Source: Sphingopyxis sp. TUF1
GTDB taxonomy: Bacteria > Pseudomonadota > Alphaproteobacteria > Sphingomonadales > Sphingomonadaceae
Length of the DNA stretch: 64,000 nt
Assembly (NCBI RefSeq): GCF_036687315.1
Contig: NZ_CP144683.1
Location: 2,612,001-2,676,000, forward strand
Direction: 5' to 3'
Positions 3,671-33,137 of the stretch are shown here, in pieces (the stretch's first letter is position 1; the number at the start of each line of letters is the position of its first letter). The position numbers were made by a program, and so were the translations under genes. The notes under the pieces were generated by a model, which was not told the DNA's origin, did not search any database, and worked only from the letters and a program-made list of their open reading frames with translations.

Positions 3671-3699
3671 TTGTCACGTTATACCTACCGGTATATAGG
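3671..3699 (+). promoter_or_regulatory. Divergent promoter with palindromic operator (site A)
   Basis: The element TACCTACCGGTA (3682-3693), with the perfect core TACCGGTA, lies exactly between a -35-like TTGTCA (3671-3676) and a -10-like TATAGG (3694-3699) with a 17-base spacer, reading toward the acyl-CoA ligase at 3748. The same element occurs in four other intergenic regions of this block. Placement inside the -35/-10 spacer suggests a repressor operator. It is also 38 bases upstream of the minus-strand acyl-CoA dehydrogenase start, so it may control both directions. Confidence 0.72.
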
Positions 3700-3747
3700 A
3701 TATGCAACGACGTCAAGGCTATGACGGATTGCGATTGCAGGTGAGAG

Positions 3748-5307
3748 ATGCTGATTTCAGGAATGTTGCGGAGAGCCGCTCATGGTTTTCCGGGCAAGCT
3801 GGCGCTGCGCGATAACGGCGCGAGCCTGACCTGGGGTGAGCTGGAAACGCGCGTGTCGCGGATCGCAGGCGGGCTCAATGGGCTCGGGCTAAAGCGCGGC
3901 GACCGTGTCGCGGTCCTCGACCAGAATGGCATGGCGTTTCACGATGCCTATCTCGCCTTGCCCTGGGCCGGGATGGTCATGGTGTGCATCAATATCCGCT
4001 GGTCGACGAGCGAAATTGCCGACGCGATCAACGACAGCGGGGCCCGGGCTCTGCTCGTCGGCCCCTCATTTCTCGACCTAGCCCCGGCGATCCAGGCGTC
4101 CTGCCCCGCGCTCGAATTGCTCATCGCGACCGAGGACGGGAAAGGCCATGCGAGCTGGGCCGCGCTCGCGCGCGAGCCCGGTCGCGTTCCCGCCGCGGAT
4201 GCCGGGCCAGACGCTCTGGCCTACATCCTGTTCACCGGCGGAACGACCGGGCGTTCGAAAGGCGTGCAGATATCGCACCTCGCCTTCTTTTCGGCCGCGC
4301 TGATGCGCCTTCATACCGGCGACTTTACGCATGACTCGGTCGTCGGCCTCAGCCTGCCGCTCTTTCACGTGTCGGGCGCTGCTTTTGTCGGCGCCAATCT
4401 CGCCGCCGCGTCGCAACTGGAGCTCTTGCCCTCGTTCGAGCCGGTGACGGCGATGGAATCGGTCGAACGGGCCGCGGTGACCCATGTCGGCTGGGTGCCG
4501 ACGATGTTGTCTATGGTGCTCAATCATCGCGACTTGGCGGCGCATGATCTGACCAGCCTGCGCCGCGTTTTCTACGGCGCGTCGCCCATGGCGCCATCGT
4601 TGCTGCGCCAGGCGATGGACAGCCTGCCATCTGCCCGCTTCGTGCAATATTATGGCATGACCGAGACTTGCGCGGGCGGCACCTGGCTCGGCGCACAGGA
4701 TCATGATCCGGGAGAGGTGGAACGGCTCGGTTCGATCGGCCGGACGGTTCCCGGCATGGAACTCGAAATTCGCCGGATGGACGAGACCCATGATGTTGCC
4801 GCCATCGATGAAGCGGGAGAGGTCTGGATGCGCGGACCGATGGTCACGAGCGGATATTGGCAGCGCCCCGATGCAACGCGCGAGGCGCTGACGGCCGATG
4901 GCTGGCTTCGCACGGGCGACGTGGGTCGGCGCGACGCGCATGGCTTCGTGTATCTGGTCGACCGGTTGAAGGACATGATCATTACCGGCGGCGAGAATGT
5001 CTATTCCACCGAGGTCGAGAATGTCATCTCGGCGATGCCCGCCGTGCTGGAATGCGCGGTCGTCGGCCTGCCCGACGAGCAGTGGGGCGAGGTGGTTTGC
5101 GCGCATATCCATCTTCGCGATGCGGCGGAGGTCTCCGAAAAGGCGATACAGGATCATTGCCGTCAATTTCTGGGCGGCTACAAGATCCCGAGGCGGATTT
5201 TCTTCTCCGAGGCGCCGTTGCCCAAAACGCCGGCCGGGAAGATATTGAAGACCGAACTCCGCCGGAACGGCGACGCGGCGGCCATCGCTTCGGCAGAAGC
5301 GCAATAG
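3748..5307 (+). CDS. Acyl-CoA synthetase (AMP-forming, ANL superfamily)
   Basis: ATP-dependent activation of a carboxylic acid to its CoA thioester through an acyl-adenylate. The 519-residue protein shows the P-loop FTGGTTGRSKG (about 162-172), the A5 motif YYGMTET, the A7 region with RTGDV, the hinge DRLKDMIITGGENVYSTEVE, and the C-terminal catalytic lysine motif PKTPAGKILK. It is the first gene of a plus-strand operon with two acyl-CoA dehydrogenases (next start only 2 bases after its stop) downstream of operator site A. The set suggests ligation followed by dehydrogenation of the same substrate. Its length and motifs fit medium- to long-chain or side-chain acid ligases; the exact acid is not predictable. 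Confidence 0.94.
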   Translation: MLISGMLRRAAHGFPGKLALRDNGASLTWGELETRVSRIAGGLNGLGLKRGDRVAVLDQNGMAFHDAYLALPWAGMVMVCINIRWSTSEIADAINDSGARALLVGPSFLDLAPAIQASCPALELLIATEDGKGHASWAALAREPGRVPAADAGPDALAYILFTGGTTGRSKGVQISHLAFFSAALMRLHTGDFTHDSVVGLSLPLFHVSGAAFVGANLAAASQLELLPSFEPVTAMESVERAAVTHVGWVPTMLSMVLNHRDLAAHDLTSLRRVFYGASPMAPSLLRQAMDSLPSARFVQYYGMTETCAGGTWLGAQDHDPGEVERLGSIGRTVPGMELEIRRMDETHDVAAIDEAGEVWMRGPMVTSGYWQRPDATREALTADGWLRTGDVGRRDAHGFVYLVDRLKDMIITGGENVYSTEVENVISAMPAVLECAVVGLPDEQWGEVVCAHIHLRDAAEVSEKAIQDHCRQFLGGYKIPRRIFFSEAPLPKTPAGKILKTELRRNGDAAAIASAEAQ

Positions 5308-5309
5308 CC

Positions 5310-6434
5310 ATGGAGATCGCATTCAACCCAGAGCAGATCCAGCTTTCGGACTCCCTGCGGCGGTTTCTGGACCGGAGCTATGGTCCCGATCACCGCCGTT
5401 CGATCAGCGCCGGCCAGGCAGGCTGGAGCGAAGGCATCTGGCGCGAATTTGCAGGACGGCTCGGAATATTGGCGATCCTCGATGATCGCGAGCGGGCGCT
5501 GCGCGAGCGATATGCGAGCCTGGCAGCCGTCATGCACCGCTTCGGACGGGCGCTGGTTGTCGAACCCTTTCTCGAGACAGTGGTGCTCGGAGGCGGCATC
5601 GCGCGGCGCTCGAAAACCGGCTTGATCGCGTCTCTCCCGGAGCGGATCTCGGCTGGCGACTGCCGGCTGGTCCTGGCGGATATCGACCCGCTTGCGGAGC
5701 GCCCAGGCGAAACAACCGCGGCGACCGCGCAGCGCGCAGCGGGCGGGTGGGTGCTGCGCGGACGCAAGGCGGCGGTCGCCTGGGGGCCCGCGGCAACGCA
5801 TCTGATCGTGTCGGCGGTGAGCGACGAAGGGCCTTCGCTGTTCCTTGTGCCGGCCGAGCATCCGCAGCTCGGCCGCCACGACTTCGAAACGGTCGATGCG
5901 CGGTGGGCGTCGGACGTCGTCTTGTCGGATCTAACGCTGCCGCATGATGCGCTGATCGGCTCGGCCGGCGGTGCGGCGGCACTGGCCGGGCCAGCGGTAC
6001 AGGATGCGATTTTCGCCATATGCGCCGAGGCTGCCGGCGTCCTCGAAGTGATGACAGAGACCACCATTCACCATCTTCGCCATCGGCGGCAGTTCGGCAG
6101 CGCGCTCGCCGACTTTCAGGTTCTTCGCCACCGCGTCGCCGAGATGCACATGCACCTGGAATCGCTCTGGTCGATGATCTGGTTCATGGTCCAGCATATG
6201 GACGGCGAGGGGGACGCGCGCTCTGCCGCCATGTCCGCCGGCAAGGTGGTCGCGGGCAAGGCTTGCCGGTTCATTGGTCAGAACGCGATCCAGCTGCATG
6301 GCGCGATCGGCCTGACCGAGGATTACAGCCTCGGCGCCTATTTCAAACGATCGACGGTGATCGAGCGGCAGTTCGGGACGACCGGGCAGCATCTTCGCCA
6401 CTTCCGCGATCATTCGATGTCGCAGTCGGTCTAG
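5310..6434 (+). CDS. Acyl-CoA dehydrogenase-like subunit (first of a tandem pair)
   Basis: A 374-residue member of the acyl-CoA dehydrogenase superfamily. I place the start at the ATG at 5310 (MEIAFNPEQ), two bases after the ligase stop; the open frame upstream overlaps the ligase gene and is not credible. The C-terminal FAD-domain motif QLHGAIGLTEDYSLGAYFKR is present, but the SEPxxGSD signature of canonical ACADs is not recognisable in the middle domain. It is followed after 15 bases by a second, similarly atypical ACAD. Such adjacent pairs in steroid degraders (for example FadE28-FadE29) form alpha2beta2 enzymes with only one complete active site per heterodimer; that this pair does so is inference. 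Confidence 0.88.
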   Translation: MEIAFNPEQIQLSDSLRRFLDRSYGPDHRRSISAGQAGWSEGIWREFAGRLGILAILDDRERALRERYASLAAVMHRFGRALVVEPFLETVVLGGGIARRSKTGLIASLPERISAGDCRLVLADIDPLAERPGETTAATAQRAAGGWVLRGRKAAVAWGPAATHLIVSAVSDEGPSLFLVPAEHPQLGRHDFETVDARWASDVVLSDLTLPHDALIGSAGGAAALAGPAVQDAIFAICAEAAGVLEVMTETTIHHLRHRRQFGSALADFQVLRHRVAEMHMHLESLWSMIWFMVQHMDGEGDARSAAMSAGKVVAGKACRFIGQNAIQLHGAIGLTEDYSLGAYFKRSTVIERQFGTTGQHLRHFRDHSMSQSV

Positions 6435-6449
6435 CTTGGGGAAAGAGCA

Positions 6450-7550
6450 ATGGAATTCGATTTTTCCGAAGAACAGGAACAGTTTCGCGACCAGTTGCGC
6501 CGCGCGCTTGCGCGTCCCGAACTGGGGAAGGACGCGGCGCGTTCGGTGCTGAACGGCGAGGCAGCCCATAGTGCGGCATCATGGCAGCTCCTGGCCGATA
6601 TCGGTGTACCCGCGATCATGATCGATGAAGAGCATGGCGGCCTCGGCCTCGGCCCCCTCGAACTTTGCGTCGCGGCGGAGGAAATCGGGCGCTCGCTGGC
6701 GCCCGTTCCGTTCCTGTCCTCGACCGTGATCCTCGCCGAGGCAATCCGCTGTTTCGGTTCGAAGGAACAGCGCCGCAAATGGCTCCCCGGCCTGGCGGAC
6801 GGAAGCGTGATCGGGAGCTGGGCCATGCATGAAGAGGGAGGCGGCGCGTTCGAATTCTCATGCACCACCAGGATTGCCGACGGGAAGCTCACCGGGCGCA
6901 AGCGACCGGTTCTCGACGCGGGGATTGCCAGTCTCCTGCTCGTCGGCGCCACCAATGCGGACGGCGAATTTGTCCTCGCCGTCGCCGAAGGGGACGATCC
7001 CGACCTGCACGTCGAGCCGGTGGGAACAGTCGATCCCTCACGACCGTGTGGCGCGCTGTCCTTCTCCGGCGCTGCCGCGGAAATCCTGCCGGGCGGGGGG
7101 CTTGCCGGGTGGCGCGACCTGCTGCGGCAGGCGGCGATCCTGTCGGCCTTCAGCCAGCTCGGCATGGCCGACAGCGCGCTTGCCATGGCGCGGGCCTATG
7201 TGCTCGAGCGCCATGCCTTCGGCCGGAAAATCGGTTCCTATCAAGCGATCAAGCACAAGCTGGCGGATATCTATGCGCGCAACGAGCTGGCGCGGGCGCA
7301 TTGCTATTATGGTGCCTGGGCACTCCACACGGGCGCGCGGGAATTGCGGCTTGCGGCCGCGGGTGCGCGCTGCTCCGCAACCGATGCTGCAACCTTCGCG
7401 GCGCAGGAGAATATGCAAGTCCATGGCGGGATCAGCTTCACCTGGGAGGCCGATTGCCACCTCTATTACCGGCGCGCGCGACAGGATGCGTTGCTGCTCG
7501 GGCCGGTCCAGGAGTGGCAGGATCTCCTCGTGGACGAACTCGCCACCTAG
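6450..7550 (+). CDS. Acyl-CoA dehydrogenase-like subunit (second of a tandem pair)
   Basis: A 366-residue acyl-CoA dehydrogenase superfamily protein, the third gene of the ligase/ACAD/ACAD operon, with start ATG at 6450 after GGGGAAAGAG. The C-terminal segment QVHGGISFTWEADCHLYYRR is the type in which the Glu of TWE is a candidate catalytic base (family knowledge). The middle domain lacks the standard SEPxxGSD signature. Together with the preceding gene it probably makes a heteromeric dehydrogenase. A GC-rich 12-base palindrome (7574-7585) follows in the gap to the convergent crotonase gene. Confidence 0.88.
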   Translation: MEFDFSEEQEQFRDQLRRALARPELGKDAARSVLNGEAAHSAASWQLLADIGVPAIMIDEEHGGLGLGPLELCVAAEEIGRSLAPVPFLSSTVILAEAIRCFGSKEQRRKWLPGLADGSVIGSWAMHEEGGGAFEFSCTTRIADGKLTGRKRPVLDAGIASLLLVGATNADGEFVLAVAEGDDPDLHVEPVGTVDPSRPCGALSFSGAAAEILPGGGLAGWRDLLRQAAILSAFSQLGMADSALAMARAYVLERHAFGRKIGSYQAIKHKLADIYARNELARAHCYYGAWALHTGARELRLAAAGARCSATDAATFAAQENMQVHGGISFTWEADCHLYYRRARQDALLLGPVQEWQDLLVDELAT

Positions 7551-7679: not shown

Positions 7680-8546
7680 TTATTCGGCGGCTGCCCCCAT
7701 ATCGGCCCACCAAGGGAAATAGCCGGGGAGATTGGCGGATACCCGGTCGGGAAACTCCGCCGCCCGAACTTCGAGAAAGCTGTTCACGCCTTCGCGCGCG
7801 TCCTTCGAGGCGCCGCGGCTCTGCAGCAGCGCGCTTTCGACGCGGTGCGCTATGCGTGGATCGGGCTCTGCCATATTTTTCCACATCATCTGGCGGGTGA
7901 GCGCAACGGAGACAGGGGCCGATCGGGCCGCAATCGCCTCGGCGAGAGCAAAAGCGGCGGGTAGCAGATCTTCCTTCGCATGCACCGAGCGGACCAGCCC
8001 GTGCCGATGCGCTTCCTCCGCCAGAAATAATTCACCGCCAAGCGACCATTCCAGCGCGGTAGAGATGCCGACGAGCCGCGGCAGGAACCAGCTCGAGCAG
8101 CTTTCCGGGACGATGCCGCGCCGCGTGAAGACGAAGCCGAAGCGAGCAGTCTCGCTGGCCAGCCTGAAATCCATCGGCAGGCAAAGCGATGCGCCAAGAC
8201 CCACCGCCGGCCCGTTGATCGCGGCGATCACGGGTTTCAGGCTGTCGTAGACTCGAAGCGCGATTTCGCCGCCCGCATCGGGAACCACATCGCCCGGCGC
8301 ACACACGTCGGCGACGTCGAAAATGTCATCATTCTCCAGATCGGCGCCGGCACAGAAGGCCGATCCGGCGCCGGTCACGATCACCGCCCGGACTGCATCG
8401 TCGCTATCGGTGACGTCGAATGCGCGCAGCAGCTCGTCCTTCATCGCCGGCACATAGGCGTTCAGCCGATGCGGCCGGTTGAGGGTTATCGTTGCGACTG
8501 CCCCGACGACGTCCAATTCTATCGTGTCGAACTTCACTGCATTCAT
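7680..8546 (-). CDS. Enoyl-CoA hydratase/isomerase (crotonase) family protein
   Basis: A 288-residue crotonase-fold protein expected to act on an enoyl- or related acyl-CoA. The CoA-binding/oxyanion-hole motif GSAFCAGADLEN is around residue 65, and the second oxyanion segment INGPAVGLGASL lies about 110-120. The glutamate in IVPESCSS occupies the usual catalytic region. It stands alone on the minus strand, convergent with the ACAD pair and divergent from the monooxygenase-domain/SDR/enolase operon. The divergent gap carries operator-like site B. Confidence 0.92.
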   Translation of the reverse strand: MNAVKFDTIELDVVGAVATITLNRPHRLNAYVPAMKDELLRAFDVTDSDDAVRAVIVTGAGSAFCAGADLENDDIFDVADVCAPGDVVPDAGGEIALRVYDSLKPVIAAINGPAVGLGASLCLPMDFRLASETARFGFVFTRRGIVPESCSSWFLPRLVGISTALEWSLGGELFLAEEAHRHGLVRSVHAKEDLLPAAFALAEAIAARSAPVSVALTRQMMWKNMAEPDPRIAHRVESALLQSRGASKDAREGVNSFLEVRAAEFPDRVSANLPGYFPWWADMGAAAE

Positions 8547-8564: not shown

Positions 8565-8584
8565 TTTACCTTATGGTAGGTAAA
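8565..8584. promoter_or_regulatory. Inverted-repeat operator-like element (site B)
   Basis: TTTACC (8565-8570) and GGTAAA (8579-8584) form a perfect 6-base inverted repeat around an 8-base centre. On the minus strand it reads TACCTACCATAAGGTA, sharing the first eight bases of the TACCTACCGGTA element seen at the other promoters. It lies between the divergent crotonase (start 8546) and the ABM-domain gene (start 8666). No convincing -35/-10 pair is visible here, so this is the weakest of the sites. Confidence 0.55.
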
Positions 8585-8665: not shown

Positions 8666-8956
8666 ATGATTGCAATCATTGCCGCTGTGCGCGTGAAAAC
8701 GGATCGACTCGCGGACTTCGAGCGCGACTTTCTCCAGTTCGCCGCCGACGTCAGGGCGAATGAGAACGGCAATCTCCTGTTTCAGCTGTGCGGCGACCCG
8801 AAGCGCCCGGGCGCGTATAAGATAATGGAGCTCTACGACAGCGAGGATGCCCTGAAAGCGCATAGCGCGAGCGCGCACGCCGCCCGCTGGTCGCCGGTCA
8901 TTGCCGCGCTGCTCGACGGCGCCCCTGAAATCCAGAAGTTGAATGTGATCGGATGA
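8666..8956 (+). CDS. Antibiotic biosynthesis monooxygenase (ABM/YgiN-like) domain protein
   Basis: A 96-residue ABM-fold protein of the type found in quinol monooxygenases (YgiN) and many small dimeric alpha/beta proteins in catabolic clusters. I start at the ATG at 8666 (MIAIIAAVRV), preceded by an excellent GGAGAGACGAG site; the open frame extends upstream but that part covers the operator region. Visible features are the beta-strand start MIAIIAAVRV, the segment NGNLLFQL, and the region YDSEDALKAHSASAHA, whose His-rich part is typical of the fold. It is the first gene of a plus-strand run with an SDR, an enolase-superfamily enzyme and an oxidoreductase. Function beyond the fold is unknown; it could be a cofactor-free oxygenase, an isomerase or a ligand-binding protein. 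Confidence 0.85.
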   Translation: MIAIIAAVRVKTDRLADFERDFLQFAADVRANENGNLLFQLCGDPKRPGAYKIMELYDSEDALKAHSASAHAARWSPVIAALLDGAPEIQKLNVIG

Positions 8957-8999
8957 CTGCAGGCGCTTGATCGCGCTGCATCGATCCCGGAGGTTCGAA

Positions 9000-9797
9000 A
9001 TGTCTTACACTATCCCGCAGCTGCTTGAAGGCAGGAAAGCCGTTGTCACGGGTGCCGCGCACGGGATCGGCCTCGCCATTGCCAACGGGTTCGCGATGGC
9101 CGGGGCGACAGTGCTCATTGCCGATATCGACGAGCCGGCGGCCGAAGCGGCGGCGAGGTCGATCGTTGCGGCAGGCGGCTCCGCGATCGCCGCATTGTTC
9201 GACGCCGCGGCGGATGCTTCCTCGGCGTCGCTCGCCGCGACCGCCGAAGCCCGGATGGGCGGGTGCGATATTCTGGTGAACAATGCCGGGATTTATCGCG
9301 GCGGTTCGGTCGATTCCGTGACCATCGACGATTTTCAGTCGCTGCTCGACGTCAATCTCACCGGATACCTGCGAACGACGCAGGTCTTGTTGCCGTTGCT
9401 CCGCGCCGCAGGCGGCGAGGCGCGGATCGTGAACATGGCCTCGATCATGGGCGTGAGGGCAGGGGCCGACTCCATCGCCTATTCGGTGGCTAAGGCCGGC
9501 ATCGTCAATCTGACCCGAGCGCTCGCCAGCGATCTCGGGCCGGAAGACATCCTCGTCAACGCCATTGGCCCGGGGTTCATCGATACGCGGATGGCGGTTC
9601 TACCCGATGAGGCGGGGCATGAACATGAGACCGACTGGTTTCAGGACATCTATATCAAATATGGCCGCATACCGCTGCGTCGGCCTGGCGTGCCGGACGA
9701 TGTCGTCGGGCCTGCCCTGTTCCTCGCATCCAGCCAGTGCCGCTACGTGACCGGGCAGATGCTGCTCGTCGACGGCGGCCTGTCTTCCACATTCTGA
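9000..9797 (+). CDS. SDR family oxidoreductase
   Basis: NAD(P)-dependent classical short-chain dehydrogenase of 265 residues. The start is the ATG at 9000 with a strong GGAGG site; an in-frame ATG at 8967 is not preceded by one. Motifs: TGAAHGIG cofactor loop (about 17-24), NNAG (about 95), the Ser-x-Tyr-x3-Lys active site in SIAYSVAKAG (about 160), and the PG motif near GPGFIDTR. It sits between the ABM protein and a sugar-acid-dehydratase-like enzyme in one operon. It may act on a hydroxyacyl-CoA or, given that neighbour, on a 2-keto-3-deoxy sugar acid. Confidence 0.93.
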   Translation: MSYTIPQLLEGRKAVVTGAAHGIGLAIANGFAMAGATVLIADIDEPAAEAAARSIVAAGGSAIAALFDAAADASSASLAATAEARMGGCDILVNNAGIYRGGSVDSVTIDDFQSLLDVNLTGYLRTTQVLLPLLRAAGGEARIVNMASIMGVRAGADSIAYSVAKAGIVNLTRALASDLGPEDILVNAIGPGFIDTRMAVLPDEAGHEHETDWFQDIYIKYGRIPLRRPGVPDDVVGPALFLASSQCRYVTGQMLLVDGGLSSTF

Positions 9798-9828
9798 CGG
9801 CAATGCCGGACCTGACAGGGAGCGGAAG

Positions 9829-11013
9829 ATGACCAGCATCTCTACTGTTGCGAAAATTCGACACATCGCGGTCGTGCCGCTGCATGGCGAAAGCCCGAAG
9901 AACGGATGGGCCAGCGAGATCAAGCCCACCGACTCGATCCATGCCCTGATCTCCGTGCACACCGACATCGGTGTGATCGGCCTCGGGAGTGTCTTCACCG
10001 ACGGCCGCCTGGTGCAAGCCGCCGTCGACGTATTAAAGCCCTTGTGGGAGGGCGAAAATGCGATGGAGCCCGAACGCGTTTCGGAAAAGCTGCACCAGAA
10101 CAGCTTCTGGACCGGCCGGGGCGGCACGCTCACGCATGCGATCAGCGGCATCGACATCGCGATGTGGGATATATTGGGCAAGGTTACCGGCCAACCGGTC
10201 GGCCGCCTCCTCGGCGGTTATTACCGCACGAAGGTTCAGCCCTATTGCTCGCTCTTGATCGAGAGCCCCGAACAGATCGCCGAGCGCATCCGGGAATTTC
10301 GCGGCAAGGGGTTCCGGGCGTTCAAGATTGGCTGGGGCCCGATCGGCCGCGCCAACGATCCGGGTCTCGACGAGGCGATCGTCGGCGCGGCGCGCGAGGC
10401 CGCCGGGCCGGAGTCGAGGCTCCTGGTCGACGCGGGGGCGAGCGACGCCTTTTGGCCTCACGGACTGAAATGGGCGCTGCGAACCGCCGAAATGCTCGCC
10501 GGCCATGACGTCGAATGGTTGGAGGAGCCGTTGCCGCCCGATGCGCTGGAGGATTTTATCGTCCTCCGGCGGCAAAGCCCGGTGCCCATCGCGGGAGGCG
10601 AGGTTCTGACGCGCAGACAAAGCTTCCTGCCCTGGATCGAGCGCGGCGCCCTAGATGTCGTGCAACCCGATGTCACAAAGGTCGGCGGGATCAGCGAGCA
10701 GCGCCGGATCGCCTGGGCGGCGTGGGATCGTGGGATCAAATATGTCGGGCATGGCTGGAACACGGCGTTGGGCCTTGCCGCAGATATGCAGCTGGCCGCG
10801 GCGAACCCTTCCACCGACCTTGTCGAGTTCATCGGCGGCAGTGCCTATATCGACGGCATATTGGCGGAGCCCTTCATTCTCGACGCGGACGGGTTGCTGA
10901 CCATTCCGCAAACGCCCGGGCTTTCGGTCACATTGGACCCGGACAAACTCAGGCGCCTCTCGACCGACCCGGGTGCCCTTTTCGGGATGCCGGCAGCCAC
11001 AGGTGATTCATGA
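9829..11013 (+). CDS. Mandelate racemase/muconate lactonizing (enolase superfamily) enzyme, likely acid-sugar dehydratase type
   Basis: A 394-residue enolase-superfamily enzyme. These abstract a proton alpha to a carboxylate using Mg2+; the MR-like branch includes galactonate, rhamnonate and fuconate dehydratases. I see the N-terminal capping domain, the barrel-strand motif FKIGWG with its Lys, three candidate metal ligands (Asp in LLVDAGAS, Glu in WLEEPL, Glu in IAGGEVL), the Asp of VQPDVTKVGG, and a C-terminal His in GHGWNT that fits the general base of the MR subgroup. Its stop overlaps the start of the next gene (ATGA), so the two are probably translationally coupled. The substrate is unknown; an aldonate is my best guess. 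Confidence 0.9.
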   Translation: MTSISTVAKIRHIAVVPLHGESPKNGWASEIKPTDSIHALISVHTDIGVIGLGSVFTDGRLVQAAVDVLKPLWEGENAMEPERVSEKLHQNSFWTGRGGTLTHAISGIDIAMWDILGKVTGQPVGRLLGGYYRTKVQPYCSLLIESPEQIAERIREFRGKGFRAFKIGWGPIGRANDPGLDEAIVGAAREAAGPESRLLVDAGASDAFWPHGLKWALRTAEMLAGHDVEWLEEPLPPDALEDFIVLRRQSPVPIAGGEVLTRRQSFLPWIERGALDVVQPDVTKVGGISEQRRIAWAAWDRGIKYVGHGWNTALGLAADMQLAAANPSTDLVEFIGGSAYIDGILAEPFILDADGLLTIPQTPGLSVTLDPDKLRRLSTDPGALFGMPAATGDS

Positions 11014-23351: not shown

Positions 23352-23412
23352 CGCGGCCGCGCCGCAAGACTGCCGCACCCGTTCCGGGCGCGCTACGAGA
23401 TGGAAAGAAGAG

Positions 23413-24204: not shown

Positions 24205-24207
24205 ATC

Positions 24208-24859: not shown

Positions 24860-24888
24860 TTGACATCCTATTTACCGGTCGGTATAAC
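24860..24888 (+). promoter_or_regulatory. Sigma-70 promoter with operator in the spacer (site D)
   Basis: Consensus TTGACA (24860-24865), a 17-base spacer, and TATAAC (24883-24888) read toward the TonB receptor at 24969. The spacer contains TACCGGTCGGTA (24873-24884), which on the minus strand is TACCGACCGGTA, one base away from the TACCTACCGGTA element of sites A, C and E1. The geometry is that of a promoter blocked by a bound dimeric repressor. Confidence 0.75.
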
Positions 24889-24968: not shown

Positions 24969-27248
24969 ATGATGATTTCACGACGCCAGAAGGGCCGGTT
25001 CGCGGCCTTGTCGGCGACCGCATTGTGCCTTTCGATGCTCCCGGCGGCGCCGGCCTTTGCCCAGGACAGCAAGCCCGCGGCGGCCGAAGCCGACGATGGC
25101 ACGATCATTGTCACCGCGCTGCGCCGCAATACCGCCTTGGTGGAAGCACCGGCCTCGATTACTGCCATCGACGCCGACTCCCTGCGCGATCAACAGATCA
25201 CGGACCTGTCGAGCCTTGGCCAGAAGGTGCCCGGCCTCACGTTCAGCGAACAGATCGGCGTGTCGCAGGCATCGATACGCGGGATCGCGCTCACGTCAAC
25301 GTCGGGCGGTCTCGAAACGCCGGTGGCGATGTTCTACGATGGCGTGTATCTCCCCGCTGCCGCTCCGCTCAAAGTCCTGTTCATGGATGTGGGCAGCGTC
25401 GAAGTCCTGCGCGGGCCGCAGGGGACGCTGTACGGACGCAACGCGACCGGTGGCGCGCTGAACTTCAGGTCGGCCAAGGTCGAAGACGAACTGACCGGAA
25501 CGGTCGACGCGTCATACGCCAACTATGACACCTATCAGCTGCGGGGATCCGTGAGCGGACCACTGCTCGACAGCGTCGTGGGCTTCCGCATCTCCGGCCT
25601 CGCCGGCGGGCGCGGGAAGGGATGGGCGAAGGACCTTGGGACCGGCGAGCGCCTCGGCGAATATCGCGAGAAGGGCGTCCGCGGCGCGCTCGCTATCAAC
25701 CCGACCGCTGGGGTCGAACTCGACCTTTCGGGCGTCTACTACAAGCGCAATCAGAATGTGACCGAGATTTCGGCACCCCGCCTGCCGGTCGGGCAGCGTG
25801 CGATCGACGAGAATCAAGCCGTTTTCGGCCCCGATGATATCTACTCGACGACCGTGTTGTCGCTCGACCCGCGTCGGGTGCGCTACAATTCCGCTGGACG
25901 GTCGATCCAAGAAAGTCGCGGCGTTGTCCTCGGCGCGAAGGTCGACGTCGCAGAAGGTCACGCACTCAGTTCAAAGACGTCCTATTTTCGCGTCGAGAAT
26001 GATCTTCGGGGTACTGACTGCGATGCGACGCAGATCGAGACCTGCACAGGCGATAGCATCGACGACTCGAAGGTGTTCCAGCAGGAATTCAACCTGACCG
26101 GCGATGTCGGCAAGCTCGGCTATGTTCTGGGGGCTTATTACGGGCGCGAGCGGCAATATTGGCAGCGCGACTATGTGTTCTCGAATAGTCAGCAAGGCGC
26201 CGTCGTCGTCAGCGGTTCGCCCTTTCCCAACGGAACGACGACGATCAACCACCGCGACCAGCTCACCAAATCCTATGCGGTCTATGGCGATCTCACCTAT
26301 AATGCGACCGAAGCGTTGCAATTGTTCGGCGGTGCCCGCTGGGCCAAGGACAAGCGCGATGCGGACTTCGAATTCGCGTTCGTGCTGCCCGGAAATCCCC
26401 CGGCCGTCATTGGGGTCTGCGAAGGATTTTCGTCGCCGACCGGAAGCGGCTCCGACAAATGGAGCAAGACGACCTTCAAGGCGGGCGCGAAATATGAACT
26501 CGGCCGCGGCAATGTCTATGGTCAGTTCCAGCAGGGTTTCAAGGCGGGCGGCTTCAATCCCGCGTCATGCGGCCAATCCTTCGAGCAGGAAACGGTCAAC
26601 GCCTACGAGATCGGCTACAAGGTCAATTCGCTGATCGACGGTGTCGATCTTCGTCTCTCGGCCTTCCACTATGACTATAGCCAGATGCAGGTCTACGTCA
26701 TTCTTCCGTCCGTTTTCCCCCTGCCGGTGATCACCAACGCCGATTCTGCCGTGGTCGACGGCCTCGAAGCCGAGGTCAACTGGCGCGTGAGCCCTCGCTT
26801 CAAGCTCGACCTCAATATGGGGTGGATTCCGCGGGCCAAATATAATGCCGAATTTCTGAACACAGATCCGTTCACCGATGCGGTCGTCGATCTCAACGGC
26901 AACCGGTTGCCGATGTCGGCAAAGCTGACGCTTGGGGCCGGTGCGGAAATAAATTTTCCGGTGGGCAACGCGGACGAACTCACGGTCCGCGGCGAAATCT
27001 ATTACAACAGCGGGGTGCATTTCACGGCATTCAACACGGCCGATACCGCGGAGAACGGTTATATGCTCGGCAACCTGTTTGCGACCTATAAGCCCAATCA
27101 CGGCAATTGGTCGGTGCGCGCATTCGTGCGCAACATTACCGACGAAAAATATTTCGTCGGTTCGACGGACTCCAATATCCTCTTCAATACCCTTGGCTCT
27201 TCATCGGAGCCACGGTCATATGGTGTTGGCGTCAACATGACATTTTGA
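24969..27248 (+). CDS. TonB-dependent outer-membrane receptor
   Basis: A 759-residue outer-membrane transporter that takes up a large or scarce ligand using TonB energy. I start at the ATG at 24969, after a GGAGGGGAG site; an upstream in-frame ATG at 24939 and another at 24972 exist. There is a signal peptide ending in PAFAQD, a TonB-box-like IIVTALRR, the plug domain (ITAIDADSLRDQQ, then the conserved VLRGPQGTLYGRNATGGALN), and the beta-barrel ending in a C-terminal Phe (GVNMTF). It is the first gene of an operon with a GH30 glycosidase, an acyl-CoA ligase, a crotonase and a carboxylesterase, so the ligand is probably the substrate those enzymes process. Confidence 0.96.
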   Translation: MMISRRQKGRFAALSATALCLSMLPAAPAFAQDSKPAAAEADDGTIIVTALRRNTALVEAPASITAIDADSLRDQQITDLSSLGQKVPGLTFSEQIGVSQASIRGIALTSTSGGLETPVAMFYDGVYLPAAAPLKVLFMDVGSVEVLRGPQGTLYGRNATGGALNFRSAKVEDELTGTVDASYANYDTYQLRGSVSGPLLDSVVGFRISGLAGGRGKGWAKDLGTGERLGEYREKGVRGALAINPTAGVELDLSGVYYKRNQNVTEISAPRLPVGQRAIDENQAVFGPDDIYSTTVLSLDPRRVRYNSAGRSIQESRGVVLGAKVDVAEGHALSSKTSYFRVENDLRGTDCDATQIETCTGDSIDDSKVFQQEFNLTGDVGKLGYVLGAYYGRERQYWQRDYVFSNSQQGAVVVSGSPFPNGTTTINHRDQLTKSYAVYGDLTYNATEALQLFGGARWAKDKRDADFEFAFVLPGNPPAVIGVCEGFSSPTGSGSDKWSKTTFKAGAKYELGRGNVYGQFQQGFKAGGFNPASCGQSFEQETVNAYEIGYKVNSLIDGVDLRLSAFHYDYSQMQVYVILPSVFPLPVITNADSAVVDGLEAEVNWRVSPRFKLDLNMGWIPRAKYNAEFLNTDPFTDAVVDLNGNRLPMSAKLTLGAGAEINFPVGNADELTVRGEIYYNSGVHFTAFNTADTAENGYMLGNLFATYKPNHGNWSVRAFVRNITDEKYFVGSTDSNILFNTLGSSSEPRSYGVGVNMTF

Positions 27249-27322
27249 CGGCTGCAAGGGGTTGCTCGGCAGAATAGTTCGCACCCGCGATCCCAAAGTG
27301 ACAATGAAATAGGAAGCTCGGA

Positions 27323-28864
27323 ATGATCAATAACACCAAGTCACGAATTGTCGCCTTTACGCGGTGGCGGGGCGCGGTCGGGGGTCTCGCCCTGCTCGCG
27401 GCCGGTGTAATCGGTTCGCCCGTCTGGGCCGAGCCGACGGCGGAAGTGATCGTCAGTTCGTCCGAAGGCGACCGTCTTTCAAGGAAGGCCGACCTCCCGT
27501 TCGTGGCTGACACGGCTGGCGACGCGCCGGTCTTCACCGTCGATGATTCCAAGCCGCTGCAGAAAATTCTCGGCTTTGGTGCCAGCTTCCAGGAAGCGGG
27601 CATGATCCTGCTGTCGGATCTCAAGCCGGCCGAGCAGGAGGCCGTGCTTCAATCGGTGTTCGATCCCGAGAAAGGCGCCGGGTTCTCGGCCATGGTCACC
27701 TATATGGGTTCGACCGATCTTATGTCGGCCGGGCCCTATTACACCTATGCCGACAAGGAGGGCGATGTCGCGCTTGACAGTTTTACGATCGAGCGCGACC
27801 TCAAGCCCTTCGGTCTCGCCACCTATATCAAGCGCGCGCAGAAATATGGCCGCTTCGCCTTGCACTCGCGGCTCGACTATCCGCCGAACTGGATGATGCT
27901 CGATCAACGGTTCGAGAAGGGCATGATTCTCGATCCGCATTATTACGAACCGCTGTCGCGCTATTATCTGAAATATATCCAGGCCTATCGGGAGCAGGGG
28001 ATCGATATCACCCATCTCAGCCTGTTCAACGAACCGGGGTTCTACACCAAGATCAGCTATTCTGAGATCGGTGACATCATCCGCAACCATGTCGGCCCAC
28101 TGTTCAGGAAAGAAGGCATCACGACGAAGCTGCAGATTGCCGATGCTCCTTTTCGCTACTGGGCACACAAGGTGTACCCTGTGCTTCTCGATAACCCGGA
28201 GACCCGCCAATATATCTCGGGCATGACCTATCATTCCTACGACTATCTTTGGGGCCCGGAAGCCAAGCTGGACGGACTGCGCAAGATCGCCGACTTGCAC
28301 GCCCGCTATCCCGACATCGAAATCTGGATGACCGAGCATTGCTATCACCGCGATTCGATCATGGCGGCCAAGCTGGGAGACATGGAAATACCGCGCCTCG
28401 ATTTCGAAGACGGAGATTTCTGGGGTCACGAAATCGCGAACGAACTCGAAGCCGGTGCGTCGGCATGGAGCTATTTCAACCTGATCCTCGACGAGGAAGG
28501 CGGCCCGGAGTTCGTGTCACCGGTGCATCAGTATAAGGATAATAATGTCCAGCAACCGGTCATCGTGATCAACCGGAAAGAAAAAAAGGCTCATTATACG
28601 GGTCTGTATTATTATCTCTCGCACTTCGCCAAATATGTGCGGCCCGGCTCGGTGCGGCTAACCACCACGGGTAGCGCGCAGGGGCTGCGCGTCCTGTCGT
28701 TCAAGCGGCCCGACGGCAAGATCGTCGTCCAGGTGATGAACAGCCGCGCCGAAAAGGCGAAGGTCAACGTCGCCTGGGGCGGGGAACTTCTTCCTGTCGA
28801 AGCACCGGCCATTTCGATCAGCACGATTATCTGGCCGGCCGACGGCGCTTCGACAGGATCCTGA
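27323..28864 (+). CDS. Glycoside hydrolase family 30 protein, secreted
   Basis: A 513-residue GH30-type (glucosylceramidase-like) glycosidase. An N-terminal signal peptide (GGLALLAAGVIG then VWAE) predicts export. The start of the barrel has KILGFGASFQEAG, typical of GH30. The acid/base candidate is Glu237 in LFNEPG and the nucleophile candidate is Glu338 in WMTEHCY, in the expected order and spacing of a retaining clan GH-A enzyme. The C-terminal region is the beta-sandwich linked to the barrel in GH30 (YYYLSHFAKYVRPGS). It lies 74 bases after the TonB receptor and one base before an acyl-CoA ligase, so it probably removes a sugar from an amphiphilic substrate before activation. GH30 covers glucosyl, xylosyl, fucosyl and glucuronyl specificities; which one applies is not visible. 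Confidence 0.9.
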   Translation: MINNTKSRIVAFTRWRGAVGGLALLAAGVIGSPVWAEPTAEVIVSSSEGDRLSRKADLPFVADTAGDAPVFTVDDSKPLQKILGFGASFQEAGMILLSDLKPAEQEAVLQSVFDPEKGAGFSAMVTYMGSTDLMSAGPYYTYADKEGDVALDSFTIERDLKPFGLATYIKRAQKYGRFALHSRLDYPPNWMMLDQRFEKGMILDPHYYEPLSRYYLKYIQAYREQGIDITHLSLFNEPGFYTKISYSEIGDIIRNHVGPLFRKEGITTKLQIADAPFRYWAHKVYPVLLDNPETRQYISGMTYHSYDYLWGPEAKLDGLRKIADLHARYPDIEIWMTEHCYHRDSIMAAKLGDMEIPRLDFEDGDFWGHEIANELEAGASAWSYFNLILDEEGGPEFVSPVHQYKDNNVQQPVIVINRKEKKAHYTGLYYYLSHFAKYVRPGSVRLTTTGSAQGLRVLSFKRPDGKIVVQVMNSRAEKAKVNVAWGGELLPVEAPAISISTIIWPADGASTGS

Positions 28865-28865
28865 G

Positions 28866-30392
28866 ATGGCAGTGCTGCCGGCCGGTGACTTGCTTCGCTA
28901 CCATGCCGAGCGAAAGCCGGAGAATAGTATTGCAGCGTCGTTCGCCGATGGTGACGTTACCTGGTGGGAGCTCGAACGGCGCGCCAACCGCCGCGCGCGC
29001 TTCCTGGCGGATCGCGGCGTGGGGGAAGGCGATTGGGTCACCATGGTGCTGCCCAATGATATCCGCTTCTTCGAATATAGTTTTGCCCTGTGGAAGCTCG
29101 GCGCGACGCCCAATGTCATCTCCCCGCGCCTGGCGGCGCAGGAGCGCGCGGACATCATCGCGCTCGCCGACCCGCGTCTGGTTGTGACCGTCGAGCAGGG
29201 CGAGGGAGACTCCCGAACCCTTAGCTATCTGGAATCGGCGGACGATTATGACGATCGTCCGCTGCCCGCCAAGGTCAGCAAATATTGGAAAATCCTGGGC
29301 AGCGGCGGATCGACGGGGCGCCCCAAGTTGATCGTCGATCATCGCAAAGCGGAATATGATCCCCAGCAGACGATGCTCAGCATGCCGGCCGACGGCGTCG
29401 TAATGGCTCCCGGGCCGCTCTATCATAACGCCCCTTTCGGCAGCATGCACGGCGGGTTGTTCGTCGGCGCCCATATCGTGGGAATGCCGCGTTTCGATCC
29501 CGAGGAAATGTTGCGGCTCATCGCCGCTCACGGCGTGCAGTGGATCAGCATCGTCCCCACGATGATGCACCGGATCTGGGGGCTCTCGCCCGAGGTGCGG
29601 GCGCAATATGACCTCAGCAGCCTGCAAGCCGTGTGGCATTCGGCGGCCGCGATCGCGCCTTGGCTGAAGCAGGCTTGGATCGACTGGCTGGGCGCCGAGC
29701 GCATCTTCGAGATGTATGGCGGCACCGAAGGTCTGGGCGCCACGATGATCACCGGCAGCGAATGGCTCGCCAAGCCGGGCTCGGTGGGGCGCGCGCATTA
29801 TGGTGGCCTGCAGATCCTTCGTGCGGATGGAACCGTGGCCGCCCCGGGCGAGATCGGCGAGATTTATTTCTCGTCGCCGGCGCCGGGCGAGCGGACCTAT
29901 CATTATGTCGGTGCCGAGCCTCAGCGCAGCGAGAACGGGTTGGACTCGCTTGGCGACCTCGGATGGGTCGATGACGACGGCTATCTTTTCATCGCCGATC
30001 GCCGAGCCGACCTGATCGTTCGCGGCGGCGTGAACGTCTACCCGCTCGAGATAGAGAATGTGCTCGATGCGCATCCCGACATCGTCTGCGCCATCGCGGT
30101 CGGTCTGCCCGATGACGAGTTCGGCAGCCGCGTTCATGCCATCGTCGAAACGCGCGCAGGCGCAAAGGTCGAGGCGATCGCGCTAGTGGAGTTCGCGAAG
30201 GATAGGCTCGCGAGCTACAAGGTCCCGGAATCGATCGAACTGACGAGCACGCCGCTGCGCGATGATTCCGGAAAGGCGCGCCGCATGGCGCTCCGCCAGG
30301 AACGCATCGACATGCTGGGCAAGGGTGAAGCCTTCTCCTCGTGGGAGCGGCGTCCCCTGACCGGGGCGGTGCCGGCCCTGACGCATCCATAG
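28866..30392 (+). CDS. Acyl-CoA synthetase (AMP-forming; bile-acid/aromatic CoA ligase-like)
   Basis: A 508-residue ANL-superfamily ligase that starts one base after the GH30 stop. The adenylation P-loop is ILGSGGSTGRPKLI, then GPLYHNAPF, the A5 motif MYGGTEGLG, the A8 hinge DRRADLIVRGGVNVYPLEIE, and a C-terminal segment DDSGKARRM in place of the usual PxTxxGKxxR, which still has the Lys. The N-terminal domain and the GSGGSTG loop resemble ligases for bulky acids (bile-acid-CoA ligases and relatives). Position after a glycosidase suggests it activates the aglycone acid. Confidence 0.93.
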   Translation: MAVLPAGDLLRYHAERKPENSIAASFADGDVTWWELERRANRRARFLADRGVGEGDWVTMVLPNDIRFFEYSFALWKLGATPNVISPRLAAQERADIIALADPRLVVTVEQGEGDSRTLSYLESADDYDDRPLPAKVSKYWKILGSGGSTGRPKLIVDHRKAEYDPQQTMLSMPADGVVMAPGPLYHNAPFGSMHGGLFVGAHIVGMPRFDPEEMLRLIAAHGVQWISIVPTMMHRIWGLSPEVRAQYDLSSLQAVWHSAAAIAPWLKQAWIDWLGAERIFEMYGGTEGLGATMITGSEWLAKPGSVGRAHYGGLQILRADGTVAAPGEIGEIYFSSPAPGERTYHYVGAEPQRSENGLDSLGDLGWVDDDGYLFIADRRADLIVRGGVNVYPLEIENVLDAHPDIVCAIAVGLPDDEFGSRVHAIVETRAGAKVEAIALVEFAKDRLASYKVPESIELTSTPLRDDSGKARRMALRQERIDMLGKGEAFSSWERRPLTGAVPALTHP

Positions 30393-30432
30393 ACCAAATA
30401 TCGTCAACCTTCGGACAGAAAACAGGTGCATG

Positions 30433-31341
30433 ATGTCAACGGATCAGCAGTGGAAAAACATTCTTCTCGAACATCCCGCCGATCACGTCGCGCGGATCAT
30501 CCTCAACCGTCCCGACACGCGCAATGCGCAGGACGCGACGCTGCTGTACGAGTTGAACGAGGCGTTCGACCGCGTCGCGCAGGATGATGATGTGAAGGTG
30601 GTCATCCTCGCGGCCAATGGTCCGCATTTTTCGTCGGGCCACGATCTGCGTCAGCGGCCCGAAGCGCAGCTCAAGGTCCTCGCCGAGCGAGACACGGTCG
30701 GGACCTGGTGCGGTTTCGGATGCGCGGGCGCGGAATCGCGCATGGCGATCGAAAAGGAGCTCTATATCGGCTTTTCCGAACGGTGGCGGAATATGCCCAA
30801 GCCGACGATCGCAGAAGTCCAGGGCAAGGTAGTAGCCGGCGGCCTTATGTTGATGTGGCCGTGCGACATCATCGTCGCCGAAACCGGCGCGCGCTTCCAG
30901 GACAATACGCTGAAGATGGGCGTGAACGGCGTCGAGTTCTTCAATCATCCGTGGGAGTTCGGCATTCGCAAGGCGAAGGAAATGCTCTTCACCGGCGATT
31001 GGGTCACCGCCGAGGAAGCGAAGGGCTATGGCATGGTCAATCATGTCGTCCCTCCCGAAGAGCTGGCCGAGTTCACGCTCGCGATGGCGAAAAAGATCGC
31101 CGAGAAGCCGCTGTTCGCGCTGAAGCTCGCGAAAGAGTCGGTGAACGCGGCCCAGGATCATCAAGGCCGGGTCAATGCGATGCAGGTGTCCTTTGCCTAT
31201 CATCAGCTATGCCACAGCCATAATATGAACCTTTTCGACATGCCTGCGGATCCGGGCTTTCTGTTAACCAATGCGGTGGATATTCCGCTCGACGCGCTGC
31301 CCGAGAAAGCGCGCAAGGCGCTCGAAGCGAGGATGGGCTGA
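30433..31341 (+). CDS. Enoyl-CoA hydratase/isomerase family protein (paralogue of the gene at 15726)
   Basis: A crotonase of 302 residues from the second of two adjacent ATGs (30430 and 30433). It shares long identical blocks with the protein at 15726-16562: AANGPHFSSGHDL, AESRMxIEKE, GFSERWRN, FFNHPWE, KAKEMLFT, and KLAKESVNxAQDHQGR. It has a longer C-terminal tail ending PLDALPEKARKALEARMG. Like the paralogue it has an atypical active-site loop. It follows the ligase by 37 bases and precedes the carboxylesterase by 24, inside the TonB receptor operon. Confidence 0.92.
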   Translation: MSTDQQWKNILLEHPADHVARIILNRPDTRNAQDATLLYELNEAFDRVAQDDDVKVVILAANGPHFSSGHDLRQRPEAQLKVLAERDTVGTWCGFGCAGAESRMAIEKELYIGFSERWRNMPKPTIAEVQGKVVAGGLMLMWPCDIIVAETGARFQDNTLKMGVNGVEFFNHPWEFGIRKAKEMLFTGDWVTAEEAKGYGMVNHVVPPEELAEFTLAMAKKIAEKPLFALKLAKESVNAAQDHQGRVNAMQVSFAYHQLCHSHNMNLFDMPADPGFLLTNAVDIPLDALPEKARKALEARMG

Positions 31342-31365
31342 ACTCGTGTCGGCGCGAGCAACAGC

Positions 31366-33057
31366 ATGAACCCGTGGGACGCAAAATTCCTTGCGGCAGA
31401 CGCGCTCGCGGCCGACGATAGGCCGCATCTTCTCCAGACGCCGCAAGGGGCCTTGCTCGGGATCACGCGGCGACACGGTGACCGCCGGATCGGCGTGTTC
31501 AAGGCGATCCCCTATGCCGCGCCGCCAACCGGCGCGGCGCGGTGGCGGCCGCCGGCGCCCGCGGCGCCTTGGCCGGGCGTGCGTGCAGCGCTCCACTATC
31601 CTCCAGACTGCATCCAGCCGCCGGCGATGATGCCGGCCGACGCCTTATGGTATCAAGGCCCGTTGCTGCCAGAGAGCGAGGACTGTCTCTATCTCAATGT
31701 CTGGACGCCGGCTGACGAAGAAACCGCCGGGGACACGGGGCGCCGGCCCGTCATCGTCTGGATCCACGGCGGTTCCTTCGTCAGCGGTTCGGGATCGCAT
31801 CATCTCTACGACGGGTGCGCGCTGGCGGCGAAAGATGTGGTCGTGGTTACGATCAATTACCGGCTCGGGATATTGGGGCTCTTCGCGCATCCCGAACTCA
31901 CCGCGGAATCGCCGCATGGATCCTCGGGCAATTATGCCGTCGCCGACATCATCCAGGCCTTGCGGTGGGTCCGCGAGAATATCGCGAGCTTCGGCGGCGA
32001 TCCCGACTGCGTCACTCTGGCAGGCGAGTCCTCGGGAGCATTCCTCGTCAGCCTGGTCATGGGCTCACCGCTTTCGAAAGGGCTGATCCACCGTGCGATC
32101 GGTCAGAGCGGCGGCATGTTCTACCGCACTCGCCGCCTGCGCGGCGCGCCCGGTGGCCGCCCCGGCGCCGAGGAATTGGGGGCAGCTTTTGCGTCGGCGG
32201 TCGGTGCCAGGTCTCTGGCGGACCTGCGCGCCATTCCCGCCCGCGATCTCGTCAACAAGGCCTTCGAACATATCGCGCACCTCGACGGCGCCGGCTTCTT
32301 GATGGCTGTCGACGGGTGGATCCTGCCCGACTTCAACCCCGATATATTCGACCGGGGAGAGCAGGCGGACATACCGGTCCTCGCCGGATTCAATACCGAC
32401 GAATGCAACAGCATGGCAAATTTTGGTCAGGTTCCGCTCATCGCGCCCGATGCCGCGGCATACCGCGCGCAGCTGGCGACAACCTATGGCGAGCTCGCCG
32501 ACACGGTGGCGGCCGTCTATCCCGACAGCGACCCGCTGCGCTCGACGTTAAAGGCGTTTGACTATGCTCTGTTCGGTTATGCAGCGGAGCAATGGTGCCA
32601 CTCGATGCGTCACGTCTCGTCGCACGCCTATCTTTATCATTTTGGCCACCGCGCGCCCGGTGCGGAGACCAGGCTTCCGGCGCCGCCCGATCGCGAGGCG
32701 GACCTGGGCGCATTCCACTCTGCCGAGATCGGCTACGCTTTCGGCCACATCGACGACGGGGCCTGTTACGCGCCGAATATTCCTTTCGGACCGATCGGCG
32801 AAAAGGAGCGGGCGATGTCGGAGCTGATGTCGGACTTCTGGACGTCTTTTGCGCGCGACGGCGTTCCCAGTTCGCCGCGCGGTCCCGAATGGAAATCCTA
32901 TAGCGACGCGGGCCGCGACTATATGCAGTTCGGCGACGGACGTGCCACCGCCAGCACGCATTTGATGCCGGGCGCGCGCGAACTCCAGCAGTCCATCGCG
33001 AACGCAGCCTGGGAGCGGGAGATCGGCTGGACCGGCGGCAATCCCGACCTCGTCTAG
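31366..33057 (+). CDS. Carboxylesterase (type B, alpha/beta hydrolase)
   Basis: A 563-residue carboxylesterase of the type B family, which hydrolyses esters of medium to large acids. Diagnostic motifs: SEDCLYLNVWTP, the oxyanion-hole HGGSF, the nucleophile elbow LAGESSGAF (GxSxG), the acid residue region NTDECNSM, and a His-containing C-terminal segment LGAFHSAEIGYAFGH. There is no signal peptide, so it should be cytoplasmic. It is the last gene of the TonB receptor operon. A second, only partly visible, esterase of the same family lies at the right edge of the window. Confidence 0.93.
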   Translation: MNPWDAKFLAADALAADDRPHLLQTPQGALLGITRRHGDRRIGVFKAIPYAAPPTGAARWRPPAPAAPWPGVRAALHYPPDCIQPPAMMPADALWYQGPLLPESEDCLYLNVWTPADEETAGDTGRRPVIVWIHGGSFVSGSGSHHLYDGCALAAKDVVVVTINYRLGILGLFAHPELTAESPHGSSGNYAVADIIQALRWVRENIASFGGDPDCVTLAGESSGAFLVSLVMGSPLSKGLIHRAIGQSGGMFYRTRRLRGAPGGRPGAEELGAAFASAVGARSLADLRAIPARDLVNKAFEHIAHLDGAGFLMAVDGWILPDFNPDIFDRGEQADIPVLAGFNTDECNSMANFGQVPLIAPDAAAYRAQLATTYGELADTVAAVYPDSDPLRSTLKAFDYALFGYAAEQWCHSMRHVSSHAYLYHFGHRAPGAETRLPAPPDREADLGAFHSAEIGYAFGHIDDGACYAPNIPFGPIGEKERAMSELMSDFWTSFARDGVPSSPRGPEWKSYSDAGRDYMQFGDGRATASTHLMPGARELQQSIANAAWEREIGWTGGNPDLV

Positions 33058-33096
33058 CCAGCGTTCTGCGAGCCGCAGGGATTTATGCGGCCTATA

Positions 33097-33137
33097 TTGA
33101 CTACCTACCGGTAGGATGTATAAATCTACCGGTAGAT
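33097..33137 (+). promoter_or_regulatory. Promoter with two palindromic operators (site E1 and E2)
   Basis: TTGACT (33097-33102), a 16-base spacer, and TATAAA (33119-33124) form a promoter toward the SDR at 33156. The spacer holds TACCTACCGGTA (33102-33113), within the perfect 12-base palindrome CCTACCGGTAGG. A second perfect 14-base palindrome ATCTACCGGTAGAT (33124-33137) overlaps the last base of the -10 and the expected start of transcription. It is the only one of the sites with two operators. Confidence 0.75.

Follow-up and report, generated by a model that had tools for sequence, protein, structure and literature searches.

A recurrent inverted repeat as the probable operator of a locally encoded TetR-family repressor in a 51-kb catabolic island of Sphingopyxis sp. 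TUF1

The site of PfmR was given by Agari et al. as TACCGACCGNTNGGTN (as quoted in PMC7022988), and the operator of DarR, a regulator of Mycobacterium and Rhodococcus associated with cyclic di-AMP, is described in PMC10636190 as ATACTN4AGTAT, that is, TAC-N6-GTA, with TXC/GXA half-sites and with two dimers bound to overlapping palindromes. EdcR of Caenibius tardaugens is reported as a TetR repressor of an estradiol cluster with free estrogens as effectors (PMC8700777), and MbdR of Azoarcus sp. CIB as a TetR repressor of a catabolic cluster that has sites at several promoters and is induced by the first coenzyme A (CoA) thioester (PMC4424350). We analyzed a 64,000-base stretch of the Sphingopyxis sp. 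TUF1 genome (the window; positions 2612001-2676000 of one 3,470,982-base contig, with places left of its edge given as negative coordinates) in which the inverted repeat TACC-N4-GGTA recurs in the promoter gaps of a catabolic block. This island (about -14.4 kb to 37.1 kb, 51 kb) was delimited using simple gene calls across 124 kb around the window and holds 41 predicted genes (17-57) in 13 predicted units, a unit being same-strand genes with inner gaps of at most 124 bp. From comparison of sequences, the repeat is very probably the operator of the TetR-family repressor with a PF17932 ligand domain that is encoded by island gene 20. We read the repressor, most likely locally encoded, as a well-supported new case of a known kind; judged from listings of the open-licence literature on the operator letters, PF17932, Sphingopyxis TetR or such an island, no account of the regulon was found.

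Distribution of the motif

The 12-mer TACCTACCGGTA occurs exactly at 3682, 17421 and 33102, and a one-base variant, TACCGACCGGTA, lies on the minus strand at 24873-24884, as the initial annotation of the window had noted. A related inverted repeat at 8565-8584 and a second palindrome at 33124-33137, also listed there, are both present in the sequence, and the former (TTTACC...GGTAAA) fits the same motif in a shifted register. The five regions concerned are promoter gaps (four divergent and one at an operon start), and the gaps of the right block are free of the motif, both as proposed: no gap in that block holds a match to the 16-mer TACCTACCGGTAGGTA at up to five mismatches, and its sole match at up to four mismatches (63884) is intragenic. 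The window contains 8 matches to the 12-mer at up to two mismatches, against a mean of 0.64 and a maximum of 4 in 100 shuffles, none of which reached 8.

Across the 3.47-Mb genome the exact 12-mer is present three times, always within the island, and the three further places at one mismatch are 24873, one 8 kb left of the window (also in the island), and 1003999. The 16-mer at up to three mismatches has nine genomic places, seven of which fall between window coordinates -18873 and 33117 (binomial 1e-11); because the backwards control for this search returned five places, the signal is the clustering and not the raw count. TACC-N4-GGTA without mismatch has 12 genomic places, and six of them are in island promoter gaps (-7917, 3682, 8567, 17421, 24873 and 33102). 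Read in reverse, the pattern is found at 49 places; the inverted repeat is thus rare in this genome, and half of its places are in the island. These 16-mer and TACC-N4-GGTA shares fall within less than 2% of the genome, and the motif is neither common in the genome nor unrelated to the block.

A motif-independent scan of all 4-base inverted repeats with spacers of 0-12 in the island's 13 non-convergent gaps of at least 60 bp ranked TACC-N4-GGTA first (6 of 13 gaps, versus a maximum of 3 in 40 shuffles), and the repeat was found in 0 of 31 gaps outside the island. TAC-N6-GTA occurs 7 times in the 13 island gaps versus once in the 31 outside gaps, and TAC-N5-GTA was not found in the 13. Among 396 genomes of the order, the 16-mer at up to one mismatch was found at one place in one genome, with none in the TUF1 genome, so the perfect palindrome is not common as a site.

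All seven promoter gaps of the island (six divergent and one operon-start) carry a site, at -12139, at -8044 with -7917, at 3682, 8567, 17421 and 24873, and at 33102 with 33124, and none is present in the six gaps of 60 bp or more that lie inside units. The five regions initially placed between 1 and 37 kb stand, but two more gaps beyond the left window edge (-12.2 kb and -8.0 kb) belong to the set, and possibly a third at -18.9 kb, where a doubtful site with three mismatches (-18873) precedes a gene outside the 41-gene set.

The best sigma-70-like promoter overlaps the site in 6 of 8 scored gaps (by a single base at -7917), compared with 2.9 of 8 when sites were placed at random in the same gaps (P 0.018). 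At 3682, the 12-mer lies between a -35 TTGTCA (3671) and a -10 TATAGG, 17 bp apart, serving the rightward unit 3748-7550; the top-scoring promoter reading pairs this -35 with TAGGAT at 19 bp, and the site also faces the leftward seven-gene unit ending at -6490. The 24873 site is inside the spacer of TTGACA-17-TATAAC, touching the -10, at the promoter of the rightward TonB-receptor operon, and the promoter predicted in the 8567 gap is weak (score 5.6). The -8044 and 17421 sites lie a short way downstream of the -10 in a strong leftward promoter; for 17421 this is the best leftward promoter (-10 at 17440-17445), 7 bases away (3 counting the 16-mer), and the overlap there is only with a weaker promoter on the rightward side, while the -18873 site likewise overlaps only a weaker promoter. 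Such positions, over or adjoining the predicted core promoters, are where a repressor would sit, and a repressor bound there would be expected to obstruct RNA polymerase.

The candidate regulator and alternative explanations

The genome has 26 TetR-domain matches, none of them inside the window, and the earlier statement that no matching regulator gene is found there holds for TetR genes (the LysR gene at 43123-44274 is part of the right block). The conclusion drawn from it, that the regulator acts in trans, is misleading because the best candidate is encoded within the island, about 10.5 kb beyond the left window edge. This candidate, gene 20 (216 aa; contig 2600804-2601454, window -11196 to -10546), lies downstream of an enoyl-CoA hydratase gene in the same unit. 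Its product matches TetR_N (PF00440) at 42.1 bits (cut-off 24) and the ligand domain PF17932 (TetR_C_24) at 71.0 bits (cut-off 26.4; residues 101-211), these being its only Pfam matches. Its nearest solved relatives by sequence are 3DCF, PfmR 3VPR and 3CCY, followed by DarR entries, and a structure model of P0001, a 97% copy of gene 20, aligned best, in a tie, with PfmR, RHA5900, DarR, 3HIM and KstR2, with AibR just below. The predicted fold is the all-helical TetR fold, and the model places gene 20 in the PfmR/DarR/KstR2 fold group.

Upstream of the regulator genes of this family, TAC-Nk-GTA was counted for every spacer k. In 29 loci from relatives k=6 was found in 25 and any other spacer at most once, and among 80 named loci (the top 80 of 418 that the family alignment retrieved, partly overlapping the 29-locus set) k=6 was found in 76 (next spacer, 7), and TAC-N6-GTA outranked every other one of the 64 x 17 three-base inverted repeats. 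It was not found upstream in 4 of the 80 (L078, L084, L087 and L094). Seven loci (L086, L093, L099, L082, L110, L113 and L127) have two upstream TAC-N6-GTA sites 18 bp apart (others 19), an arrangement that suggests paired dimers.

Operator and regulator also occur together in a Halieaceae metagenome-assembled genome (locus L101), where the regulator is 32% identical to that of gene 20 and matches PF17932 at 72.6 bits. Exact TACCGACCGGTA lies there between the regulator and a divergent major facilitator superfamily (MFS) gene and again before an SMP-30 gene, and five one-mismatch places lie before a thiolase gene (two), before an unnamed open reading frame (ORF), at the 5' end of a short-chain dehydrogenase/reductase (SDR) ORF of our own calling, and before a TonB receptor gene. 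Both exact copies of TACCKACCGGTA in this 4.5-Mb genome and 7 of its 31 places at up to one mismatch are within this 15-kb stretch around the regulator (binomial 1e-11), a concentration seen at no other of the 80 loci. Counterparts of island genes at L101 encode a CoA ligase (45%), SMP-30 (38%), enoyl-CoA hydratase (37%), SDR (31%) and TonB receptor (27%). At the level of sequence, site spacing, promoter placement and co-conservation with a TetR family together support the TetR-like repressor that had been suggested for these sites.

Several observations weigh against gene 20 as the reader of the sites. Of all the sites, the one in the promoter gap of its own unit (-12139, TACCTACCAGTCAGTC) is the weakest, with the GTA half missing, and no site is present in the 124 bp immediately upstream of gene 20. 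The 33124 palindrome has the inner TACC/GGTA and is without TAC-N6-GTA. In 51 of the 80 relatives' upstream stretches the inner letters are ACT-N4-AGT and not ACC-N4-GGT, which makes the TACC-N4-GGTA of the island a variant within the class, and TAC-N6-GTA also precedes 4 of the 25 other TetR genes of TUF1, so the spacing is not unique to the gene-20 family. Apart from P0001, the other two homologs listed at 1e-20 are 39% identical to gene 20, and in Sphingopyxis sp. BIN8, which has a 35% homolog, one of 10 motif places is at the regulator and no concentration is seen. Finally, with genes judged by eye, TACC-N4-GGTA has six places outside the island, of which five seem intergenic (one upstream of its own TetR gene and four more) and one is inside an ORF. 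Among the genomic places outside the island, 2089345 is inside an ORF and 1120755 (TACCGACCAGTTGGTA) is upstream of its own, different TetR gene. This form may therefore serve other regulators as well, or the regulon may extend further; no pathway link was noticed at the six TACC-N4-GGTA places except for one CoA-transferase-III-like neighbour.

That neighbour adjoins a perfect palindrome of the same form at contig 3367686-3367697 (TACCGATCGGTA), far from the island, which is possibly one more target. The one-mismatch 12-mer place at contig 1003999-1004010 (TACCTACCGGCA) is without the GTA half and lies in a gap between transposase-like and wax-ester-synthase-like ORFs, about 140 bases before the latter (by eye); it is possibly due to chance or a weak further target.

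A different TetR protein encoded near the island might read the sites, and genes 12 (about -22056) and 16 (MphR(A)-like, -15237 to -14665) both occupy its left end, with gene 16 adjoining units of the island. Gene 5, a 74% paralog of gene 12, carries a single TAC-N6-GTA (TACTATTATGTA) some 330 bp upstream of its helix-turn-helix. Upstream of genes 12 and 16 themselves, however, there is neither a 16-mer match at up to five mismatches nor a TAC-N6-GTA. Gene 16 matches MphR(A) 3frq at 2.3e-34 and has no PF17932 domain (the scan of gene 12 used the TetR_N model alone), and together with radical-SAM gene 15 it forms a conserved pair (72% and 79%) in G023, another genome of the genus, where the 37 kb taken around the pair holds no island gene and no TAC-N6-GTA; locus L067 has no 16-mer match at up to four mismatches. 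We consider either gene an improbable reader of the sites. A regulator of another family encoded elsewhere (LacI, GntR or similar) is equally improbable: the CG centre of the inverted repeat would suit a LacI-type protein, and the island has three GH30 genes and one GH39-like gene, but the operator and the gene-20 family travel together in a gammaproteobacterium (L101), and the family's own promoters show the same half-site and spacing.

The presence of the motif at every promoter gap of the island could instead mark the binding site of an activator or an element of a special promoter. Against this, the 33102, 24873 and 3682 sites are between or over ordinary -35 and -10 hexamers spaced 16-17 bp, where a bound protein would block, and the relatives PfmR, MbdR (PMC4424350) and EdcR (PMC8700777) are described as repressors in the sources cited, leaving this explanation slightly less probable again. 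Chance together with base composition could be argued from the loose-threshold genome total, which is near its backwards control (9 vs 5), but it is refuted at the enrichment figures given above: less than 2% of the genome holds 6 of the 12 TACC-N4-GGTA places and 7 of the 9 16-mer places, the 31 outside gaps have none, and the motif is present in two left-hand gaps beyond the view of the initial annotation.

Control by gene 20 is thus the reading we prefer. We infer that its dimer would recognise TAC-N6-GTA, here as TACC-N4-GGTA and mostly as TACC(T/G)ACCGGTA; that the bound repressor would block RNA polymerase at the 13 units (41 genes for uptake, deglycosylation, CoA activation and beta-oxidation-like steps); and that its release would be brought about by a pathway-derived inducer, most probably a CoA thioester. 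The repressor is probably CoA-thioester-responsive (suggested by fold group and gene neighbourhood only). TACCTACCGGTA(GGTA) is made up of two TAC-N6-GTA dyads that overlap at an offset of 4 bp, and each operator could thus accommodate two repressor dimers at once. We tentatively propose, as a possibility more than an expectation, that they do bind together as in DarR, making one local switch for a 41-gene glycoconjugate-catabolism island; if the overlapping dyads are read correctly, a TAC-N6-GTA code would be common to hundreds of uncharacterised relatives in catabolic clusters.

On this account the 51-kb island becomes one regulon for which the regulator gene, the operator and a predicted inducer class can all be specified, and the identity of the inducer would point to the island's substrate. 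What generalises best from the analysis is the TAC-N6-GTA operator rule for the gene-20 family, a large TetR group, by which targets and self-regulation of many uncharacterised members become predictable.

Gene content of the island and its surroundings

Gene contents were assigned by Pfam except where marked as judged by eye (Table 1). Uptake genes of the island comprise two TonB receptors and two MFS genes, and sugar genes comprise three GH30 and one GH39-like glycoside hydrolase, a pyrroloquinoline quinone (PQQ) dehydrogenase, SDRs, an SMP-30 lactonase-like gene and a sugar-acid-dehydratase-like enolase. CoA activation is represented by two AMP-binding ligases and one CoA transferase, alongside beta-oxidation-like enzymes. 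From this content we infer that the substrate may be a glycoside or glycolipid whose aglycone is fatty, terpenoid or steroid-like.

Table 1. Putative operators and predicted transcription units in the window
Feature	Position	Strand	Location or content
Operator TACCTACCGGTATATA	3682..3697	+	Divergent gap 3644-3747
Operator TACCTACCATAAGGTA	8567..8582	-	Divergent gap 8547-8665; TACC-N4-GGTA at 8567-8578
Operator TACCTACCGGTA	17421..17432	+	Divergent gap 17397-17662
Operator TACCGACCGGTA	24873..24884	-	Divergent gap 24781-24968
Operator TACCTACCGGTA	33102..33113	+	Between -35 TTGACT and -10 TATAAA (16 bp), operon 33156-37068
Second palindrome ATCTACCGGTAGAT	33124..33137	+	Perfect, 14 bp, at end of same -10 as 33102 site
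Leftward unit	364..3643, running on to -6490	-	Genes 28-29 in window, genes 23-27 beyond edge: PQQ dehydrogenase, acyl-CoA dehydrogenase, SDR (by eye), two GH30, MFS, GH39-like
3-gene unit	3748..7550	+	CoA ligase, two acyl-CoA dehydrogenase-like genes (last two by eye)
Enoyl-CoA hydratase	7680..8546	-	
4-gene unit	8666..14456	+	ABM-domain protein, SDR, sugar-acid dehydratase-like MR/MLE enolase, POR/DUF6537 ferredoxin oxidoreductase
3-gene unit	14572..17396	-	Two enoyl-CoA hydratases, acyl-CoA dehydrogenase
7-gene unit	17663..24204	+	MmgE/PrpD, two MaoC-type hydratases, acyl-CoA dehydrogenase, CoA-transferase III, HpcH/CitE lyase, FAA-hydrolase-family hydratase
Cupin protein	24271..24780	-	
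5-gene unit	24969..33057	+	TonB receptor, GH30, CoA ligase, enoyl-CoA hydratase, carboxylesterase
4-gene unit	33156..37068	+	Last genes of the regulon: SDR, SMP-30/gluconolactonase, acyl-CoA dehydrogenase, MDR-type reductase

The three GH30 paralogs (contig 2608393-2611486 and 2639386-2640852) are 45-50% identical. For one of them, gene 26, a search of 295 other relatives gave no match at 1e-60, and the 20 plasmid records listed of 26 show 24-30% identity; the island looks rare or recently acquired. In Sphingopyxis sp. BIN8 (L074:5015-13013), the gene-20 homolog is near a 45% homolog of gene 37 (POR/DUF6537) and a 38% CoA ligase homolog, which looks like another catabolic cluster of the same type.

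A second catabolic block at window 41131-58312 contains a LysR gene, an amidohydrolase, PrpF, a LigXa/Rieske oxygenase, a 962-aa TonB receptor, a CoA ligase and beta-oxidation genes. The radical-SAM gene and MphR(A)-like TetR gene pair is at L001:3589-5335 (window -16411 to -14665), and the TetR genes 5 and 12 (contig 2579409-2579924 and 2589944-2590567, 74% identical) are about 10 kb apart, left of the island.

Comparison with known TetR systems

PfmR (TTHB023 of Thermus thermophilus, PDB 3VPR), a repressor of fatty-acid genes, is 22% identical to the P0001 model in structural alignment; its targets are scattered, whereas here they form one 51-kb island. KstR2 and AibR, which are CoA-thioester-binding TetR repressors, are 16-18% identical to the same model. 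Their operators differ from that of the island. In letters and spacing the island sites resemble both the PfmR site and DarR ATACTN4AGTAT as published, and the 24873 16-mer agrees with 11 of the 13 positions that the published PfmR consensus specifies (hand count), although the optimum for PfmR from a later selection study, CTGACCGATCGGTCAG, is somewhat different. DarR shares the fold group of gene 20 but differs in its ligand and genes, and where the recognition helix described for DarR has Gly45, gene 20 has Pro (aligned by eye).

MbdR differs from gene 20 in its operator (ATAC-N10-GTAT) and is a weaker sequence match (3.3e-4). EdcR differs in its ligand domain (PF16859) and in its operator (TnnCnnTACnAnTnGTAnnGnnA, TAC-N5-GTA), and membership of gene 20 in the EdcR group is ruled out by its Pfam matches, which are PF17932 and PF00440 only, and by the 7 TAC-N6-GTA and 0 TAC-N5-GTA of the island gaps. 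In its arrangement EdcR is nonetheless like the island, as it is described as the product of a sphingomonad TetR gene within the cluster that it controls, with a palindrome that overlaps -10 boxes at several promoters and with derepression by compounds of the pathway (PMC8700777).

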